Below are positions 25,358-51,415 of a stretch of 64,000 nt of DNA, one piece after another. A program made the translations under genes and the position numbers. Under the pieces are notes generated by a model. That model searched no databases and had not been told where the DNA came from. It saw only the letters and a list, made by a program, of their open reading frames with translations. Origin of the DNA: Nonomuraea basaltis (GTDB taxonomy: Bacteria > Actinomycetota > Actinomycetes > Streptosporangiales > Streptosporangiaceae); contig NZ_VCJS01000019.1 in assembly GCF_005893125.1 (NCBI RefSeq), positions 1 through 64,000 on the forward strand, read 5' to 3'. How positions within the stretch are numbered: the stretch's first letter is position 1; every line of letters begins with the position of its first letter.

Positions 25358-25568
25358 AGGTTCGCTGGCCAATCTCCCGGTACGGCCGGCCAGGAGTCAA
25401 GCGGATGCGCCCAACCGGCAGGGGTTACCGAGCGGAACTGGGGGGTCCGCCGGGCATGCTCCCATGCCCAGCGGGAATCACTCTGAGTAGCCATGCTAAG
25501 GGATGGAAAGAGGGCGGATGCCCCGTTTTGGGGCTTTCGCGCGGGGACAGAGGCGGTCCCGTCGAACA

Positions 25569-26795
25569 TCAGCTCGTCCCGAGGTTCTTGTTCAACTCTT
25601 CCCGGTATCTCACGAACTCGCTCTCTTTGTTGGTGAATTTGGTGATTCTATGCGCCGGATCCGTCGTTACAAACCAGTGCCAATCACCCTTCGCCGGGTG
25701 CAGGGCCGCCATCAGCGCCTTTTCCCCAGGATTGGCGATGGGTCCCGGCGGCAGTCCTTTGTGGCGATAGGTGTTGTAAGGAGAGTCGACCTTGGTGTCG
25801 CTCTCCGTGACCCTCAGCGTCCGCCGGTTCTGGGCGTACAGGACGGTGCTGTCGATCTCGAGCTTGGTGCCGCGCTCGAGGCGGTTGTAGATCACTCTGG
25901 AGATCTTGGGGTAGTCCTCGTCGGTCCCGCCCTCGGCCTGGATCAGGCTGGCCACCGTGACGGCCTCCAGCGGCTTGAGGTGCACACGGGCAGCCTGCTT
26001 CTCCAGCCCCACCTTCCTGGCCGCCATGCCGAAGCGCTCGACCATCGCCGCCAGCACGTCCACGGCCGTGTCCCCGGGCTCGATCTCGTACGTGGCGGGG
26101 AACAGGAACCCTTCCAGCCCGGGCGCGTACTTGGGCAGGCCGACCAAGGCCTTGTCGACGCTCTGCAGCTCCTTGAGCGGCAGCCCGGTCTGCCGGGCGA
26201 CGCGGCTCAGCACCTCGCTCGTCCGCAGGCCCTCCGGCACGGTGACCCGCCGCACGACCCTGGATGCCGGGCTGAGCAGCAGGTCGAGCGCGGCGCCCGC
26301 CGCCATGCCCTTGCGCAGACGGTAGTGTCCGGGCCGCAGCCGGTCGGCCACCGCGCGGTCCTCCGTCGCGCGCACGAACGACTGCGCGCTCGCCACCACC
26401 CCGGCATCGGCCAGCGCCGAGCCGATGGCCTCCGCGCTGGAGCCGGGCACGATCCGCACGGTCACCGCGCCGGTGCCGGTGCCCTCGAAATCGTCGGGGC
26501 TGAGGTACGGCTTGAGCACCGCGAACGCCCCCACCCCCAGCGCCACCAGGCCCGCGATCAGGCCGGCGGAGATCAGTCCGGCCTTGCGCACGGCCCGCCG
26601 GCGAGGTGTGGGTGCGGGTAGCGGGATGACGTCCGCCTCGGCGTCGTCCTCCGGCGCGGGCCGGGCACCGCTCTCCGCCCCGGCCTCTTCGGGCACGGAG
26701 TCCCCGGCCTGGAACGGAATCACATCGCCGGCGTCCTCGTCCTCGGGAGTGCCGTTCGGCGCGTCGTTGGACGGGTCGTTGGGCGTGCCGCTCAT
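25569..26795 (-). CDS. Endolytic murein transglycosylase MltG, copy 2
   Basis: 408 residues. A long acidic cytosolic tail (about 1-65, rich in Asp, Glu and Pro) replaces the Arg-rich tail of copy 1. One membrane helix (about 72-95) precedes the LysM-like and MltG domains. The catalytic Glu is kept at ~288 in VASLIQAEGG, with VIYNRL, IDSTVLYAQ, SPYNTY and GLPPGPIANPG. The two paralogues are clearly homologous but well diverged, so this is an old duplication and both are probably active. The gap to copy 1 contains short hairpins (GCCCC-TTTT-GGGGC; GGGCATG/CATGCCC) and no gene. ruvX is 61 bases upstream. Confidence 0.93.
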   Translation of the reverse strand: MSGTPNDPSNDAPNGTPEDEDAGDVIPFQAGDSVPEEAGAESGARPAPEDDAEADVIPLPAPTPRRRAVRKAGLISAGLIAGLVALGVGAFAVLKPYLSPDDFEGTGTGAVTVRIVPGSSAEAIGSALADAGVVASAQSFVRATEDRAVADRLRPGHYRLRKGMAAGAALDLLLSPASRVVRRVTVPEGLRTSEVLSRVARQTGLPLKELQSVDKALVGLPKYAPGLEGFLFPATYEIEPGDTAVDVLAAMVERFGMAARKVGLEKQAARVHLKPLEAVTVASLIQAEGGTDEDYPKISRVIYNRLERGTKLEIDSTVLYAQNRRTLRVTESDTKVDSPYNTYRHKGLPPGPIANPGEKALMAALHPAKGDWHWFVTTDPAHRITKFTNKESEFVRYREELNKNLGTS

Positions 26796-26856
26796 GCGAC
26801 CACCCCGCCGGCCATCGGCCCCGCCGCCGTGCTTCCCCGCCCCGTGGACCGCCGGC

Positions 26857-27336
26857 TCATCGGGCAGGTCCGTCGGCCGCTGGGGGCGGTTCGACGGGCC
26901 TGCCTGGTGGTCTCTCTGTGGCGCGCTCGGAGTCGAGCGCGTCCTGCAGCAGCACGACCGCCGCTGCCTGGTCGACGACGCCGCGCTGCTTCTTGGCCTT
27001 CACGCCGCTGGCGCGCAGCCCCTGCTGGGCGGCGACCGTGGTCAGCCGCTCGTCGAACAGCCGCACGGGCGTCGGCGCGAGCCGGGCCGCGAGGTCGGCG
27101 GCGAACCGGCGGGCCAGCGCGGCCGCCTGCCCCTCGCGTCCCGACAACGAGGTGGGCAGCCCCACCACGACCTCGATCGCCTCGTGCTCGGCGACGATCG
27201 CGGCGATGCGGTCGAGGTCGCCCTTGCCCCGCTTGACGGTCTCGACCGGCGTGGCCAGCATGCCTGATGGGTCGCTGCGGGCCACGCCGACGCGTACGGA
27301 GCCGACGTCCACGCCGATCCGTGAACCGAACCTCAT
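26857..27336 (-). CDS. ruvX: YqgF/RuvX RNase H-like nuclease
   Basis: 159 residues. Putative Holliday-junction resolvase, with a role in 16S rRNA 5'-end maturation in some bacteria. RNase H-like motifs: [16 protein letters not shown] at the start (catalytic Asp), [20 protein letters not shown] (catalytic Glu), and [12 protein letters not shown] (catalytic Asp). The ATG lies one base after the alaS stop (TGACATG), so the two are translationally linked. The last ~20 residues form a Pro/Arg-rich tail beyond the usual family end. Confidence 0.93.
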
Positions 27337-31819: not shown

Positions 31820-33319
31820 TCAGGAGCCGCGGAGGAAGTCGCGGATCTTGGACCAGCGGTCGGCGACCGGGGCCTCGGCGCCGTGCCGGGTGGGCTCGTA
31901 GTAGCGGCGGTCGCGGACCTGCTCCGGCGCGTAGTCCTGGCGTACGACCCCGTGCTCGAAGTCGTGCGGGTATTTGTAGCCGTCCCCATGGCCCAGCTTG
32001 GCGGCCCCCGGGTAGTGGGCGTCGCGCAGGTGGCCGGGGACCTGGCCGATCAGGCCGCGCCGGACGTCGCCGATCGCGGCCCCGATGGCCTTGACCACGG
32101 CGTTGGACTTGGGCGCCAGCGCGCAGTGGATGACGGCGTGGGCCAGGTTGATCTGGCCCTCGGGCAGGCCGATGAGCTGCACGGCCTGGGCGGCGGCGAC
32201 GGCGGTCTGCAGGCAGGTGGGGTCGGCCATGCCGACGTCCTCGGAGGCGAAGATGACGATCCGGCGGGCGATGAAGCGCGGGTCCTCGCCGGCCTCGATC
32301 ATGCGGGCCAGGTAGTGGAGCGCGGCGTCGGCGTCGGATCCGCGCATCGACTTGATGAACGCGCTGATCACGTCGTAGTGCTGGTCGCCCTGCCGGTCGT
32401 AGCGCACGGCGGCCTTGTCGACGGCCTTCTCGACGACCTCCACCGTGATACGGGGAGCTTGATCCCCGCATCGGACAATCGCCTCTTCCTCGCTTTTCGG
32501 GGGGAACGCGGGGGGAGCTTGCTCCCCCCGCGAGGCAATCGCCTCTTCCTCGCCCTTCGGGGGGAACGCGGGGGGAGCTTGCTCCCCCCGCGAGGCAATC
32601 GCCTCTTCCTCGCCCTTCGGGGGGGACACGGGGGGCATGCCCCCCGTGGGGTCGGCCAGCAGCGCCGCCGCCTCCAGGTAGGTCAGCGACCTGCGCGCGT
32701 CCCCGCCCGCGAGGCGTACGAGATGCTCCAGCGCCTCCGGGGCGAGCGTGGCGCGTCCGCCCAGGCCGCGCGGGTCGGACACGGCCCGCTCCAGCACCAC
32801 CCGGATGTCGTCCTCGGACAGGGACTCCAGCGTGAGCAGCAGCGAGCGCGACAGCAGCGGCGAGATGACCGAGAAGAACGGGTTTTCTGTGGTGGCGCCG
32901 ATGAAGGTGACCCAGCGGTTCTCCACGGCGGGTAGCAGGGCGTCCTGCTGGGCCTTGTTGAAGCGGTGCACCTCGTCCACGAACAGCACGGTCTGGCGGC
33001 CGGTCATGCCCAGCTCGCGCCGGGCGTTGTCGATGGCCGCCCGCACGTCCTTGACGCCCGCGGACACCGCGGAGACCTCGACGAAGCGGCGCTTGGTGAC
33101 GTTGGAGACGACGTACGCGAGCGTGGTCTTGCCGGTGCCCGGCGGCCCCCACAGGAAAAGCGACATGGGAGCCTCGCTCTCGACCAGGCGCCGCAGCGGG
33201 GTGCCGGGGCCGAGCAGGTGCCGCTGGCCGATCACCTCATCGAGGGTGCGCGGGCGCATCCGCACCGCGAGGGGCTGCGGGGTGGCCTCCTCAGCCGCCG
33301 AATCGAACAGACTCTCCAC
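31820..33319 (-). CDS. rarA: Replication-associated recombination protein A, with repeat insertion
   Basis: AAA+ ATPase (RarA/MgsA, relative of eukaryotic WRNIP1) acting at stalled forks. 499 residues, about 50-65 longer than usual. Walker [14 protein letters not shown] at about 57-68, Walker [11 protein letters not shown] at about 111-120, sensor 1 [10 protein letters not shown], then the helical tetramerisation domain ([43 protein letters not shown]). Between the AAA+ lid ([16 protein letters not shown]) and the helical domain ([10 protein letters not shown]) sits a 60-residue insert made of three copies of a 20-residue unit. The frame is kept, so the protein is probably functional. Confidence 0.96.
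32450..32640 (-). repeat. Three 60-bp in-frame repeats inside rarA
   Basis: Three tandem 60-base units, two nearly identical. Each encodes 20 residues around [20 protein letters not shown]. Each unit contains palindromes GGGGGGAGC-TT-GCTCCCCCC and GAGGC-AATC-GCCTC, so the DNA or RNA can form hairpins, like palindromic elements that insert in coding genes of other bacteria. Confidence 0.9.
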
Positions 33320-34934: not shown

Positions 34935-36686
34935 TTACGCGTCCGTCTTCGGCTGGGCGTCGACGCCCGCCTCCTTGCGCTGGTCGACCGTGATCGGCGT
35001 GGGCGCGCCGGTGAGCGGGTCGAAGCCGGAGGCCGTCTTCGGGAAGGCGATCACGTCGCGGATCGAGTCGCCGCCGGACAGCAGCATGCAGATCCGGTCC
35101 CAGCCGTAGGCGATGCCTCCGTGCGGCGGCGGGCCGTACTTGAACGCCTCCAGCAGGAAGCCGAACTTGCTCTCCGCCTCCTCCTTGGAGATGCCGAGCA
35201 CGTCGAAGACGCGCTGCTGCATCTCGGCCCGGTGGATACGGATCGAACCGCCGCCGATCTCCATGCCGTTGCAGACCATGTCGTAGGCGTAGGCCAGCGC
35301 CTCGCCGGGGTGGTCCTGGAAGTTGTCGGCCCACTCCGGCTTCGGCCCGGTGAACGGGTGGTGCACGGCCGTCCAGCCGATCTCGCGGCCCACCTCGTCG
35401 TGCACGGGCTCGAACATGGGGGCGTCGACCACCCACAGGAACGACCATGCCGACTCGTCGATCAGGCCGCAGCGGCGGCCGATCTCCAAGCGGGCCGCGC
35501 CGAGCAGGTCGCGCGAGGCCTGCCTGGGGCCGGCCGCGAAGAAGACCGCGTCGCCGGGGACGGCGCCGACCTTGGCCGCGAGCCCGGAGGTCTCCTCCTC
35601 CGACAGGTTCTTGGCGACCGGGCCGCCGAGCGTGCCGTCCTCCTGCACCAGCACGTAGGCCAAGCCCTTGGCGCCGCGCGAGCGGGCCCACTCCTGCCAG
35701 CCGTCGAGCTCCTTGCGGGTCTGCGAGGCCCCGCCCGGCATGACGACCGCGCCCACGTATTCGGCCTGGAAGACGCGGAAGGACGTGTTCGCGAAGTAGT
35801 CCGTCATCTCGACCAGCTCCTGGCCGAAGCGCAGGTCGGGCTTGTCGGAGCCGTAGCGGGCCATCGCGTCGGCGTACGTCATGCGCGGCAGCGGCGCCGG
35901 CACCTCGTAACCGGCGATCTCCCGCCACAGCCTGCCGATCAGCTTCTCGCCGACCTCGATGACGTCTTCCTGGTCCACGAAGGACATCTCGACGTCGATC
36001 TGGGTGAACTCCGGCTGACGGTCGGCCCGCAGGTCCTCGTCGCGGTAGCACTTGGCGAGCTGGTAGTAGCGCTCGAGCCCGCCGACCTGCAGCAGCTGCT
36101 TGAACAGCTGGGGCGACTGCGGCAGGGCGTACCAGTTGCCGGGCTGGAGCCGCACCGGCACCAGGAAGTCGCGCGCGCCCTCGGGCGTGGAGCGGGTCAG
36201 CGTCGGCGTCTCGACGTAGACGAAGCCGAGCTCGTGCATCACCTCGTTGGCCAGGTAGGTGGCCTTGGAGCGGGTGCGCATCGCGTCGGCCACCTGCTGG
36301 CGGCGGATGTCGAGGTAGCGGTACTTCAGCCGCGCCTCCTCCGACACGCCCACGTTGCCCTCGACCGGGAACGGCAGCGGCGCCGACTCGCTCAGCACCT
36401 CGACCGTGTCGGCCACCACCTCGATCTTGCCGGTGGGCAGGTCGGGGTTCTCGTTGCCCTCCGGGCGGACGCGGACCTGGCCGACGACCTTCACGCAGTA
36501 TTCGGCGCGCAGGTCGTGGGCGTGGTCCTCCTCGCGGAAGACCACCTGCGCCGAGCCGGAGGCGTCACGCAGGTCGATGAACACCACGCCGCCGTGGTCC
36601 CGGCGGCGGGCCACCCATCCCGCGAGCGTCACCTGCTGCCCGGCGTGCTCCTCGCGGAGCGACCCGGCCGTATGCGTGCGGATCAC
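34935..36686 (-). CDS. aspS: Aspartyl-tRNA synthetase
   Basis: Charges tRNA-Asp (possibly also tRNA-Asn if non-discriminating). 583 residues, bacterial type. An OB-fold anticodon domain ([23 protein letters not shown]) leads to class II motif 1 (YRYLDIRR region), motif 2 ([20 protein letters not shown]), the bacterial GAD insertion (about 290-420), and motif 3 ([16 protein letters not shown]). The GTG start ([14 protein letters not shown]) overlaps the stop of the upstream 23-codon ORF as GTGA, and the spacing from GAAGGG suits it. Expression is therefore linked to hisS through two micro-ORFs. The C-terminal tail after [11 protein letters not shown] is short and variable. Confidence 0.98.
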
Positions 36687-36754
36687 TGCACTTTCCCTTC
36701 GTACGGATAAAGGAAGGGCGGCAGCGACCCGGCGCGTGCTGACTCGCGGATCAC
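36683..36754 (-). CDS. Micro-ORF B between hisS and aspS (23 codons)
   Basis: A GTG-started 23-residue ORF, beginning [12 protein letters not shown] (compare Asp[12 protein letters not shown]) and ending YEGKVQ (compare HisS LKGKVQ). Its stop TGA overlaps the aspS GTG (GTGA) and its GTG overlaps the stop of micro-ORF A. It contains the ribosome binding site of aspS (GAAGGG). Probably a duplication product; it may act as a coupling leader rather than a functional peptide. Confidence 0.55.
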
Positions 36755-36822
36755 TGCACTTTCCCTTCGTACGGATAAAGGAAGGGCGGCAGCGACCCGG
36801 CGCGTGCTGACTCGCGGATCAC
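36751..36822 (-). CDS. Micro-ORF A between hisS and aspS (23 codons)
   Basis: Identical in peptide and DNA to micro-ORF B, 68 bases upstream. Its GTG overlaps the hisS stop codon as GTGA, so hisS, A, B and aspS form an unbroken chain of four-base overlaps. The ribosome binding site is the GAAGGG at the 3' end of hisS. Confidence 0.55.
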
Positions 36823-38075
36823 TGCACTTTGCCCTTCAAGACGTCGACGACCTGGGCCAGCGGCACCTCGGTCTGGTCAGCGGTGGTCAGGTCTTTCACT
36901 TGTACGGCCTCGGCCGCCAGATCACGCTCGCCCAGGATCAGTGCGAAGCGGGCGCCGGAACGGTCGGCACCCTTCATCGCGCCCTTGAGCCCTTTGCCGC
37001 CGAAGGCCATATCCGCGGCGACACCGGCCGCGCGCAGCTCGTTCAGTAGCTTGAACATGGCCCGCGCGGCTTCGTCACCCAGCGCCACACCGTACACCTC
37101 GCACCGGGGCGGGGTGTCGAGCGCGAGGCCTTCCCGCTCCAGGGCGATCACGGTGCGGTCCAGGCCCAGGCCGAAGCCGATGCCGGGCAACGGCGGCCCG
37201 CCGATGGCCTCGGAGAGCCCGTCGTAGCGGCCGCCGCCGCCGATGCCGGACTGCGCGCCCAGCAGCGGGTGGTCGAACTCGAAGGTCGTGCGGGTGTAGT
37301 AGTCGAGTCCGCGCACCAGCCTGGGCGCGTCCTGCCACGGTATGCCGAGGTCGGCCAGGAGCTGCTTGACCCGGTCGTGGTAGGCCTTGCAGTCGGCGCA
37401 GAGGTGGTCGCGGATGAGCGGGGCGCCCTCGAGCTGCGCGCGGACCTCGGGACGCTTGTCGTCGAGCACGCGCAACGGATTGATCTCGATCCGCGCCCTG
37501 GTCGCCTCGTCGAGGTCGAGCGCCCGCAGGAACTCCTGCAGCCGCGCCCGGTAGATCGGCCTGCACTCCTTGCAACCAAGCGAGTTGAGCAGCAACCGCA
37601 CCTGGGTGAGACCGACCGTGGAATACCACTGCCAGGCCAAGGCGATGGTCTCGGCGTCGACGGCCGGGTCCTCGCTGCCGATCGCCTCCAGGTCGAGCTG
37701 GTAGAACTGGCGGTAGCGGCCCTCCTGGGGCGCCTCCGCGCGGAACACCGGCCCGTCGGTCCAGACCTTCACCGGGAGCTGGCCGCGGTGCATGCCGTAT
37801 TCCAGGACCGCGCGCAGCACCCCGGCGGTGAACTCCGGGCGCAGCGTCAGCGACCTGCCGCCGCGGTCGGTGAAGGTGTACATCTCCTTGCTCACGACGT
37901 CGGTGGACTCTCCGACGCCACGGGCGAACAGCTGAGTGTCCTCGAAGACCGCGGTCTCCAGGTAGGAGTATCCCGCGCGCCTGGCCGTCTCCGCGAACGC
38001 TCCGCGGATCGCGTAGAACGTCGACGCCTGTGGTGGAACGTATTCCTTGACGCCCTTGGGTGCTTGGAAGCTCAT
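36819..38075 (-). CDS. hisS: Histidyl-tRNA synthetase
   Basis: Charges tRNA-His. 418 residues. The class II core includes motif 1 region, motif 2 ([28 protein letters not shown] in part), histidine motif 1 [13 protein letters not shown], histidine motif 2 GGGGRYDGL, and motif 3 [16 protein letters not shown]; an anticodon-binding domain ends the protein ([11 protein letters not shown] to KGKVQ). The ATG overlaps the stop of the upstream hydrolase as TAATG. Its stop overlaps micro-ORF A. The RYRQF and REG-type residues for tRNA-His discrimination were not assessed. Confidence 0.98.
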
Positions 38076-44716: not shown

Positions 44717-44821
44717 ACGGACTCCTCCCGCAATGGCTCCTCACGCAATTGGCTCCTCACGTTCGAGTCCAGATCCCTCAGTGTATCCAGGCCGCGAACC
44801 CGGGGCCGTCGCGGGCCGGAC

Positions 44822-48942: not shown

Positions 48943-49974
48943 TCAGTCGAAAAGCGAGGCTCCGAACGCATCTGGGGGCGGTGTCATGCCGAGGTGGGTC
49001 CACGCGGCCGCGGTCGCGACCCGCCCGCGGGGCGTCCTGGCCAGCAGCCCCTGGCGTACGAGGAACGGCTCGGCCACCACCTCGACGGTCTCCGGCTCCT
49101 CCCCCACCGCCACGGCCAGCGTGGAAAGGCCGACCGGACCACCGCCGAACTTCCTCAGCAGCGCGCCGAGCACCGCGCGGTCGAGCCGGTCGAGCCCTTC
49201 GGCGTCGACCTCGTACAGGTTGAGCGCCGCGGAGGCGATCTCGCGGTCGATCACGCCGCCGGTGCGCACGTCGGCGAAGTCGCGCACGCGGCGCAGCAGC
49301 CGGTTGGCGATGCGGGGCGTGCCCCGCGAACGCCTGGCGATCTCGTGGGCGCCCTCGGCGGGGAGGTCGACACCGAGCAGCTTGGCCGACCGGTAGAGCA
49401 CCTGCTCCAGCTCGCCGACCTCGTAGAAGTCCATGTGCGCGGTGAAGCCGAACCTGTCGCGCAGCGGCGCCGGCAGCAGCCCGGCCCGCGTGGTGGCCCC
49501 GACCAGCGTGAACGCCGCGATGTCGAGCGGGATCGCGGTGGCGCCCGGGCCCTTGCCCACGATGATGTCGACCCGGAAGTCCTCCATGGCGAGGTAGAGC
49601 ATCTCCTCGGCGGGCCTGGCCATCCGGTGGATCTCGTCGATGAACAGCACCTCGCCCTCGGCCAGCGTGGACAGGATGGCCGCGAGGTCGCCGGCCCGCT
49701 CCAGCGCGGGGCCGGAGGTGATCCTGAGGGGCGCGTTCAGCTCCGCCGCTATGATCATCGCCAGGGTGGTCTTGCCGAGTCCCGGGGAGCCGCTCATCAG
49801 CACGTGGTCCGGCGGCCGCTGCCGGCGCAGGGCGCTCTCGAGCACGAGCGACAGCTGCTCGCGCACGCGGCCCTGGCCGATGAACTCGCCGAGCCGCTTG
49901 GGCCGCAGCGCCGCCTCGATCTGCAGCTCGTCGCCGGCGGCATCGGGCGACACGAGCTCTCGCTCAACCCCCAC
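48943..49974 (-). CDS. ruvB: Holliday junction helicase RuvB
   Basis: AAA+ motor that drives branch migration with RuvA. About 343 residues. [20 protein letters not shown], Walker [16 protein letters not shown], Walker [12 protein letters not shown], sensor 1 [21 protein letters not shown], and the C-terminal winged helix ([17 protein letters not shown]). The GTG at 49974 is favoured because GAGGAGG lies ten bases upstream; the GTG at 49983 is only one base from it. A 207-base gap separates it from ruvA, wider than the usual overlap, and contains TGATAACTT, possibly a -10 for a separate promoter. Confidence 0.97.
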
Positions 49975-50190
49975 GCCGACCACGCCTCCTCACCCGGACC
50001 ACACCATTACCGCCCTGCCCCAAACCGCCCGGCGTCAGCAGCATCCCACGCCGAGCCCACAGAGCGCCGCGCTCTCCCGCGCCGCCGCAGGACCGAACCG
50101 CGGGGTCCGAAGTTATCACCGCGCCGCGACGGTGGGAGGCGGTGCAGCGGGGCGCGGCACGACCCGGACGGTGCCCGGCCGGGACCGTGC

Positions 50191-50811
50191 TCATCGGACG
50201 CTCAAGGCGCGCAGAGCCGCCTTGAGCAGGGCGGCGACCTGCGGCTGGCGGCCGGCGACGAGCTCGGCGTCGGCGTCGGGCTCCACGATGGCGATCGCCT
50301 CGTCGGCGTCCTTGCCGGAGTAGCCCAGCCCGACCAGCCCCGAGTGGACCTGCTCCCGCCACGCCGCCATCCGCCGCTGCCCGTTGAGCGCGGCGTTGAC
50401 GGCCTCCTCGGGCGTGCCGAGCCGGTCTTTGAGCTCCAGCACGATGCGCTGGGCGCCTTTCTGCCCGATGCCCGGCACCTGCGTGAGCGCCTTGAGGTCC
50501 GCACTGGCCATGGCGACGCGCAGCGCATTGGGCGTGTGCACGGCGAGCATGGCGAGGGCCAGCTTGGGCCCGACGCCGCTGGCCGTCTGCAGCAGCTCGA
50601 ACACGGCGCGCTCGTCGTCGGCGGCGAACCCGTAGAGGGTGAGCGACTCCTCGCGCACCACCAGCGACGTGGCCAGGCGCGCCTCCTCGCCGACGCGCAG
50701 CGTGGCGAGCGTGCCCGGGGTGCAGTGGATGAGCATGCCGACGCCGCCGACCTCGATCACGGCCCCGTCCGGGGCGATCGCCGCCACCTTCCCGGCCACC
50801 GAGGCGATCAC
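50191..50811 (-). CDS. ruvA: Holliday junction DNA-binding protein RuvA
   Basis: 206 residues. OB-fold N-domain (MIASVAGKVAAIAPDGAVIE, HVREE-type loop), tandem helix-hairpin-helix motifs (LLQTASGVGPKLALAMLAVH, LTQVPGIGQKGAQRIVLELK), acidic linker, and a small C-domain that contacts RuvB (LVGLGYSGKDADEAI). The GTG start overlaps the stop of the upstream micro-ORFs (GTGA). Its own 5' end is the template for the 29-bp repeats in front of it. Confidence 0.96.
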   Translation of the reverse strand: MIASVAGKVAAIAPDGAVIEVGGVGMLIHCTPGTLATLRVGEEARLATSLVVREESLTLYGFAADDERAVFELLQTASGVGPKLALAMLAVHTPNALRVAMASADLKALTQVPGIGQKGAQRIVLELKDRLGTPEEAVNAALNGQRRMAAWREQVHSGLVGLGYSGKDADEAIAIVEPDADAELVAGRQPQVAALLKAALRALSVR

Positions 50812-50840
50812 AGCTCCACCTCGGCCACTGACGCGATCAC
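50808..50840 (-). CDS. Micro-ORF before ruvA (10 codons), unit 2
   Basis: GTG-started peptide MIASVAEVEL, a copy of the RuvA start (MIASVAGKV). Its stop overlaps the ruvA GTG as GTGA and its GTG overlaps the stop of the preceding unit. Likely a coupling leader made by duplication. Confidence 0.4.
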   Translation of the reverse strand: MIASVAEVEL

Positions 50841-50869
50841 AGCTCGACCCCGGTCACTGACGCGATCAC
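50837..50869 (-). CDS. Micro-ORF before ruvA (10 codons), unit 1
   Basis: GTG-started peptide MIASVTGVEL, again like the RuvA N-terminus, overlapping unit 2 by GTGA. A longer ATG-started frame of 26 codons (50808-50888) also begins at the ruvC stop (ATGA overlap) and ends at the same TGA before ruvA, so ribosomes leaving ruvC can reach ruvA by either route. Confidence 0.4.
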   Translation of the reverse strand: MIASVTGVEL

Positions 50870-50884
50870 AGCTCGACCCCGCGA

Positions 50885-51415
50885 TCATCGCTTGACGTCC
50901 TTTCGTGTGGCCTTGGCCAGCGCCTCGGCGAGGCGGCTCTGCGCGCCGCCGCGCCACACGTGGCAGATGGCCAGAGCGAGCGCGTCGGCGGCGTCGGCGG
51001 GCTTGGGCATCTCGGTCAGCCGCAGCAGGCGCGTGACCATGGCGCCGATCTGCTTCTTGTCGGCGGTGCCGCTGCCGGTGATGGCGGCCTTGACCTCGGA
51101 CGGCGTGTGCAGCGCCACAGGTAGCCCGCGCCTGGCCGCGCACAGCACGGCGATGCCGGCGGCCTGCGCGGTGCCCATGACGGTGCGTACGTTGTGCTGG
51201 CTGAAGACCCGCTCGACCGCGACCGCGTCAGGCCGGACGTCGTCGAGCCACTGCTCGATCCCGGCCTCGATGCCGACGAGCCGCGCGCCGAGCTCCTCGT
51301 CCGCGCCGGTGCGCACCACTCCGACGGCCACCAGCGTCAGCGGCGCGCCCGGACGCCCCTCGACGGCACCCAGGCCGCACCGGGTCAGCCCCGGATCGAC
51401 GCCCATCACCCGCAC
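50885..51415 (-). CDS. ruvC: Holliday junction resolvase RuvC
   Basis: Nuclease that cuts Holliday junctions. 176 residues. Catalytic acids visible: Asp in [12 protein letters not shown], Glu in [10 protein letters not shown], and two Asp in [14 protein letters not shown]. The GTG at 51415 (MRVMGVDPG) gives the usual family N-terminus. It is first of ruvC-ruvA-ruvB; its stop is embedded in the duplicated start-codon region of ruvA. Confidence 0.97.

Follow-up and report, generated by a model that had tools for sequence, protein, structure and literature searches.

At the junction between ruvC and ruvA of Nonomuraea basaltis, a tandem array of 29-bp units carries an open reading frame (ORF) that opens on the ruvC stop codon and ends exactly on the ruvA start codon, and we propose that such relay ORFs probably maintain termination-reinitiation between neighbouring genes, the array having been seeded by duplications whose length is 2 mod 3. 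If so, the ruvC-ruvA, ruvA-ruvB and hisS-aspS junctions of related genomes would amount to an experiment on translational coupling that evolution has run and replicated, with dozens of spacers that differ in length and sequence and nearly all lie in the frame that would deliver ribosomes to the next gene.

Anatomy and arithmetic of the ruvC-ruvA array

The window, the whole stretch of 64,000 nucleotides that was analysed, is part of a 14.3-Mb draft genome whose RuvA is most similar, among named relatives, to that of Nonomuraea turkmeniaca (93% identical). Tandem Repeats Finder reports an array at 50791-50881 (period 29, 3.1 copies, 90% matches, score 147), and this score is far above chance outside a gene, since just 182 arrays of period at least 10 reach a score of 50 in 1.5 Mb. 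As described in the first-pass annotation, two full 29-bp units and a partial one copy the ruvA start. On the minus strand the successive starts are ATG at 50888, GTG at 50869, GTG at 50840 and finally the ruvA GTG at 50811, so that the start-to-start distances from the ruvC stop to ruvA are 19, 29 and 29 bp (50888-50812), the first unit being 10 bp shorter than the other two. By eye, roughly 20 nt of each unit come from ruvA, and the other 9 or so look like the end of ruvC. The two 10-codon ORFs ending in GTGA overlaps are present as claimed, reading VIASVTGVEL* and VIASVAEVEL* with GTG as first codon. We judge an assembly error unlikely, because the copies differ by about 10% and the array is short (91 bp).

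If the G of one start codon is numbered 0 and the following start lies at L, the stop within the NTGA of that following start falls at L+1 and is in frame only if L = 2 mod 3. Since 29 = 2 mod 3, each 29-bp unit has the TGA of the next GTGA in frame, and since 19+29+29 = 77 is also 2 mod 3, the ATG at 50888 on the ruvC stop opens one 26-codon ORF that crosses all three units and ends exactly at the ruvA GTGA (Table 1). The recurrence of this pattern at a second junction, which had also been pointed out, is real as well: a 68-bp repeat (36678-36837), its length again 2 mod 3, lies between two genes that we take to be hisS and aspS (names as in the first-pass annotation), and its two 23-codon ORFs are chained like the ruvC-ruvA mini-ORFs.

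Table 1. Features of the window discussed in the text (all on the minus strand)
Feature	Position	Strand	Basis and remarks
ruvC	50885..51406, start 51406 or 51415	-	Pfam PF02075, E 1.3e-50; stop TGA 50887-50885 overlaps ATG 50888
First partial unit, 19 bp, lacking 10 bp of the 29-bp unit	50870..50888	-	Sequence
29-bp unit, copy of ruvA start	50841..50869	-	Tandem Repeats Finder and sequence
29-bp unit, copy of ruvA start	50812..50840	-	Tandem Repeats Finder and sequence
10-codon mini-ORF, ends at next GTGA	50837..50869	-	ORF translation
10-codon mini-ORF, ends at ruvA GTGA	50808..50840	-	ORF translation
Putative relay ORF 1, 26 codons, ruvC-stop ATGA to ruvA-start GTGA	50808..50888	-	Sequence; no Pfam match
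ruvA	50191..50811	-	Pfam PF01330, PF07499; stop overlaps ATG (ATGA)
Putative relay ORF 2, 76 codons, ruvA-stop ATGA to TGA 8 nt inside ruvB	49964..50194	-	Sequence; no Pfam match
ruvB	48943..49974	-	Codon 3 is GTT here, its T forming the TGA at +8
hisS (presumed)	36819..38075	-	Similarity match in 54/54 genomes
Mini-ORF, 23 codons, first 68-bp unit, hisS-stop overlap to next GTGA	36751..36822	-	
Mini-ORF, 23 codons, second 68-bp unit, ends at aspS GTGA	36683..36754	-	
aspS (presumed)	34935..36686	-	Similarity match in 54/54 genomes

We propose an ordinary tandem duplication as the origin of the array: the segment copied would have included the 4-nt stop-start overlap of ruvC and ruvA. Such a duplication would leave the RuvC and RuvA proteins unchanged and, when its length is 2 mod 3, would make of the extra copy a mini-ORF leading from the upstream stop to the downstream start, by which ribosomes could still move from ruvC to ruvA through termination-reinitiation. 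Later, the spacers at ruvC-ruvA, ruvA-ruvB and hisS-aspS would be free to grow, shrink and change, also through other repeats, the sole demand being that the reading path comes to its end at the next start codon or close to it. The ORFs in between would act as translational relays, with reading frame and end point selected and the peptide not. Stops and starts here overlap or lie a few nucleotides apart, as they do in termination-reinitiation pairs. In six NTGA-overlap pairs tested in one study, a distance of about 20 nt almost abolished coupling (PMC10666635), and this would account for the need to bridge a spacer. With reinitiation declining over so short a distance in the tested pairs, the spacer best tolerated between coupled genes of an operon would be one that is itself an ORF joining both, and overlap duplications of length 2 mod 3 would make that ORF at once, which would explain the array at ruvC-ruvA.

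Spacers and bridging ORFs in related genomes

Junctions were compared in two sets that overlap in species: 80 named loci, of which 79 have ruvC and ruvA together and one has no detectable ruvC, and 54 genus genomes for the aspS-ruvC block (this one, 48 found by location and 5 from the search loci). In 53 of the 79 named loci, ruvC and ruvA share a plain 4-nt overlap; most outgroups are among them, including Streptosporangium, Planobispora, Acrocarpospora, Actinomadura and Streptomyces. The same overlap is found in 23 of 53 genus genomes, the other 30 holding spacers of 29-715 bp. The plain overlap is therefore the likely ancestral state as judged from its distribution, and it supports the earlier proposal that a segment spanning the stop and start was duplicated. 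When ruvC-ruvA junctions were compared in relatives, as the first-pass annotation had suggested, the closest named one, N. turkmeniaca (L003), was found to hold exactly one decayed 29-bp unit, and a ruvA-start copy at 29-bp spacing is seen in L003, L005, L006 and L007 (14-15/22 matches). Other Nonomuraea have ruvC-ruvA spacers of up to 715 bp, many with different tandem repeats. The idea that decayed 29-bp copies were the source of all long spacers was rejected, as no period of 29 bp stands out clearly in the pooled spacer autocorrelation (z 1.8 at lag 29, z 2.3 at lag 30); most long spacers appear to have other origins. At hisS-aspS, 36/54 genomes show a plain overlap, and the spacers of the remaining 18 (47-261 bp) are of recognisably related sequence with differing unit counts. 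In L036 and L026 the C-terminal tail of ruvC, not a spacer, appears by eye to hold in-frame repeats; the ruvC-ruvA junction of L036 is a plain overlap and that of L026 is truncated.

To score bridging, an ORF was opened at the NTGA of the upstream stop and allowed to restart on further NTGA stops; by the exact rule it had to end on the next start, and by a wide rule between -6 and +14 of the ruvB start, a limit chosen after the ends were seen to cluster at +8. At ruvC-ruvA, an ORF or ORF chain from the ruvC stop ends exactly at the ruvA start in 27 of 30 spacers, the other three comprising two broken paths and one spacer without NTGA (G021, G052, G047). These spacers have 28 distinct lengths, 25 of them bridged and 21 of them 2 mod 3; if CTG is also counted as a start, there are 21 single ORFs, 7 chains and 2 failures. 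In the named loci 24/26 ruvC-ruvA spacers are bridged, and at hisS-aspS 17/18 are bridged exactly (exception G012). Bridging is not limited to one genus, since Planotetraspora spacers of 200 bp (four species), 131 bp and 349 bp are bridged too. Exceptions in the named set are L015 (apparently the same genome as G052), L056 and, at ruvA-ruvB, L045.

The ruvA-ruvB junction has its own geometry. Forty-nine genomes have ruvA and ruvB on one piece, and in every one of them ruvA stops in ATGA; the two genes overlap directly in one genome and are separated by a spacer of 20-1243 bp in the other 48. By the exact rule (end at +1), no more than 12/48 spacers are bridged; by the wide rule, 44/48 are (28 at +8, 12 at +1, 2 at +14, 1 at +5 and 1 at -6), and in the remaining four the ORF is in frame with ruvB and runs into it. 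Among the 76 named loci left after four without a usable match were removed, 57 end at the ruvB start, 14 are direct overlaps, 1 passes the start and 4 lack an NTGA stop; with the frame shifted, 17/58 end near the start, 26 enter the ruvB frame, 8 pass and 7 break. The longest relay ORF, in one genome, has 417 codons. In Sinosporangium siamense (L056), the 556-bp ruvA-ruvB spacer holds five GTGA-chained ORFs, the last of which ends at the ruvB start. A programmed frameshift that would carry ribosomes out of the relay ORF and into ruvB was also considered, but by eye the +1 class, with its GTGAGC start, has no evident slippery site, and the idea was not retained.

Four control junctions in the same genomes (ruvB-yajC, yajC-secD, secF-apt and apt-relA) have no overlaps and spacer lengths spread over all three frames; there, 0/183 spacers are bridged by the exact rule, 1/183 by the wide rule and 17/183 when any type of upstream stop is allowed. 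Of two further junctions of the block, secD-secF has no spacer in 46 genomes, and the one between hisS and the gene at 38075 shows, in 54 genomes, 2 overlaps and 4 gaps of 14 bp without NTGA. Within N. basaltis itself, exact bridging is found in 21 of 493 co-directional spacers of 20-800 bp, and three of these 21 lie in the window; the 21 come from 57 spacers with suitable codons at both ends, close to the one third expected by chance. Nor is there a clear genome-wide excess: 29/159 NTGA junctions end near the next start vs 19/159 with a shifted frame. Bridging thus appears, on these counts, to be special to the ruv and hisS-aspS junctions and not a property of high-GC sequence, and what recurs would be a filter, by which spacers keep a reading path that ends at the next start. 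One co-directional pair of the window (25568-27336) has a 65-bp spacer bridged by a single ORF that ends at the ATGA of the next gene.

Constraint on the spacers and rival explanations

Length changes give a first measure of constraint. In phylogenetically independent pairs, differences divisible by three number 8/13, 13/23 and 4/6 at the three junctions, and 4/17, 1/12, 9/21 and 2/18 at the control junctions; for differences above 8 bp the counts are 25/39 vs 12/26 in controls. Frame-preserving length change is only moderately enriched, and the test was dropped as sole proof, so that we rely on the end point, the controls and the ruvB codon described below. Pairwise spacer alignments hold 57 indels that are multiples of three and 148 that are not, a noisy count from 25 chosen, partly overlapping pairs, and the frame thus seems to be kept on balance and not indel by indel.

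Stop codons are rarer in the relay frame of ruvA-ruvB spacers (21/4275 codons vs 78/4313 and 58/4284 in the other two frames, p 1.7e-8), only weakly so at ruvC-ruvA (20/2018 vs 43/2044 and 25/2040, p 0.04) and not at hisS-aspS. The sharpest trace lies inside ruvB, whose codon 3 ends in T in 28 of the 31 genomes that need it for the TGA at +8 vs 1/17 others, an association resting on only three independent contrasts, all three in the expected direction. This codon has the most T-rich third position of 343 codons (mean 3%) and is among just 9 of 3252 codons, from eight genes, with at least 80% T. Its amino acid varies (mostly Phe; also Leu, Ile, Val and Ser) while the T persists, and TTT makes up only 386 of 12,098 Phe codons in the sample of the genome.

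The relay ORFs themselves behave otherwise. Over 25 chosen close-species pairs, some genomes being used repeatedly, their substitutions fall evenly on codon positions 1, 2 and 3 (119, 144, 115), unlike those of the flanking genes in similar pairs (ruvA 86, 51, 325; ruvB 84, 43, 484; aspS 85, 77, 400). GC at the three positions is 0.76, 0.726 and 0.728 in ruvC-ruvA relay ORFs and 0.755, 0.737 and 0.765 in those of ruvA-ruvB, with no clear coding bias; in the short hisS-aspS ORFs, GC3 (0.736) exceeds GC1 (0.672) and GC2 (0.643) and is the highest in 11/18. None of six relay ORFs tested matched a Pfam family above the cut-off, the one weak match being DUF3640 (E 0.011). Judged as ordinary genes, the relay ORFs thus show neither codon-position bias nor selection on amino acids. 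Since substitutions ignore codon position, unlike in the flanking genes, the peptides look unselected, the frame and end point kept. The relay ORFs are probably translated, and selection would then act on coupling. By eye, Shine-Dalgarno-like motifs precede many ruvA and ruvB starts, so independent initiation at these genes is also possible.

These observations bear on several other readings. It is very improbable that the spacer ORFs are new protein-coding genes with selected peptides: they reach 417 codons with the frame kept, some encode in-frame peptide repeats and GC3 lies somewhat above GC1 and GC2 in the short hisS-aspS ORFs, as such genes might, but the even spread of substitutions, the unclear GC bias at both ruv junctions and the absence of Pfam families above the cut-off in the six ORFs tested speak against it. 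Neutral tandem repeats, produced by a mutational process at overlapping junctions and carrying coupled mini-ORFs as a by-product of unit length, are an unlikely account. They would sit well with duplications that span an overlap and alter neither protein, with an array count in this genome that fits the intergenic background (see below), with the 127 of 142 genic arrays whose period is a multiple of three, the outcome to be expected if harmful arrays are lost, and with the many spacer indels that are not multiples of three; left unexplained are the right frame in 25/28 spacer lengths, the ATGA stop of ruvA in 49/49 genomes and the persistence of a rare T-ending codon in ruvB.

Long untranslated stretches inside an operon are exposed to Rho, and the ORFs could in principle serve to keep the spacer translated against Rho-dependent polarity, their ending on a start codon being secondary. 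The depletion of stops along ruvA-ruvB spacers agrees with this. Yet protection from polarity predicts that passing the next start out of frame is tolerated, which at ruvA-ruvB is seen in 0/48 genomes and 1/76 named loci, and the kept TGA at +8 points to the end point, so we hold this reading to be distinctly unlikely. Hardly credible, finally, is that the units are mobile elements of the type of mycobacterial interspersed repetitive units (MIRU), inserted at the start codon: the shared architecture, in which 4-nt overlaps couple the ORFs of successive tandem units, would favour it, as would unit lengths and a possible promoter role discussed in the next section, but neither unit is dispersed in its own genome (best other matches E 0.0079 and 0.074) and, by eye, the unit ends resemble the flanking genes.

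Related systems and other arrays in the genome

The closest described counterpart of the arrays is MIRU, a sequence family dispersed over many genomic loci. They are described as short repeats in many mycobacteria, apparently mobile, whose internal ORF is coupled to the following gene at -4 spacing (PMC12548453), and unit lengths of 77 and 53 bp are reported at senX3-regX3 (PMC2453075, PMC4213456), both 2 mod 3 like the units here; spacer repeats of this kind may double as promoters, as reported for senX3-regX3 (PMC4213456). As in MIRU, our units lie between co-directional genes and contain an ORF that shares 4 nt with the stop before it and with the start after it. Unlike MIRU, the 29-bp and 68-bp units are private to their junctions, matching strongly only at their own place in their own genome, and are built from the flanking genes, and the same coupled arrangement is retained in spacers whose sequences are unrelated. 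The hisS-aspS spacer varies in length among species (0 to 261 bp), but its units derive from the local genes. By analogy, the array would work like a MIRU array and not belong to that family, since its units are not dispersed. The relay reading would also account for unit lengths of 2 mod 3, both in these arrays and in the reported senX3-regX3 MIRU.

Termination-reinitiation at 4-nt overlaps shares the NTGA overlaps with our junctions; in the reviewed cases a gene is coupled either to its immediate neighbour or to a short ORF ahead of it, whereas here an ORF of unconstrained sequence separates genes that in other species share a direct overlap. A further parallel is mgtQ of Salmonella, an intergenic small ORF that promotes mgtB translation (PMC8092293): in both cases a short ORF between two operon genes serves downstream translation (as proposed here), but specific acidic residues and stem-loops appear to matter for mgtQ, while relay ORFs lack sequence constraint. 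In the open-access literature we found no report of such ORFs in the ruv operon. More tentatively, and with somewhat less than even confidence, relay ORFs may form a class of genes in which only frame and end point are selected, born by a 2 mod 3 duplication or insertion at an overlap, retained for passing ribosomes on from ruvC to ruvA and from there to ruvB, and able to grow to hundreds of codons. If this were true, some bacterial 'hypothetical proteins' would be conduits without a selected product, and relay ORFs would offer an entry point to de novo gene birth, by a route in bacteria that needs no initial peptide function.

The first-pass annotation had taken the two junctions as signs of a general mutational process acting on overlapping gene junctions, and had named as evidence against it a genome-wide search in which repeats prove no more frequent at stop/start overlaps than at other intergenic sites. 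This is what we find in about 10% of the genome: 80 stretches were drawn, of which the 72 longer than 5 kb were kept together with the window (1,496,915 bp), and a simple codon-usage caller assigned 1345 genes (83% coding), with 160 plain 4-nt overlaps among 800 co-directional junctions. Tandem Repeats Finder returned 182 arrays (period at least 10, score at least 50), 142 of them genic (127 with a period divisible by three), 22 at co-directional junctions, 9 at divergent and 2 at convergent ones, and 7 elsewhere; over this 1.5 Mb, arrays are not enriched at stop/start overlaps. Only two span a stop and a start at the same unit position, both in the window, that of ruvC-ruvA being so counted after allowing for the 10 bp absent from its first unit. 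By our arithmetic, the intergenic density of the sample (40 non-genic arrays over some 250 kb) would give about one such array, so that two are close to the expected count, and a general mutational hot spot at overlaps was rejected on this sample of about 10% of the genome. Two other arrays, in stretch L146 and at 44722 in the window, fit the arithmetic but are too short to contain both codons; in L088, an array with a 15-bp in-frame unit touches a plain overlap. The one at 44722-44761 consists of 2.6 copies of a 16-bp unit and lies in the spacer that precedes a relA-like gene. The window also holds, at 32452-32635 within an ORF at 31820-33319 (minus strand), a 60-bp (20-codon) repeat in three in-frame copies with the palindrome GGGGAGCAAGCTCCCC.
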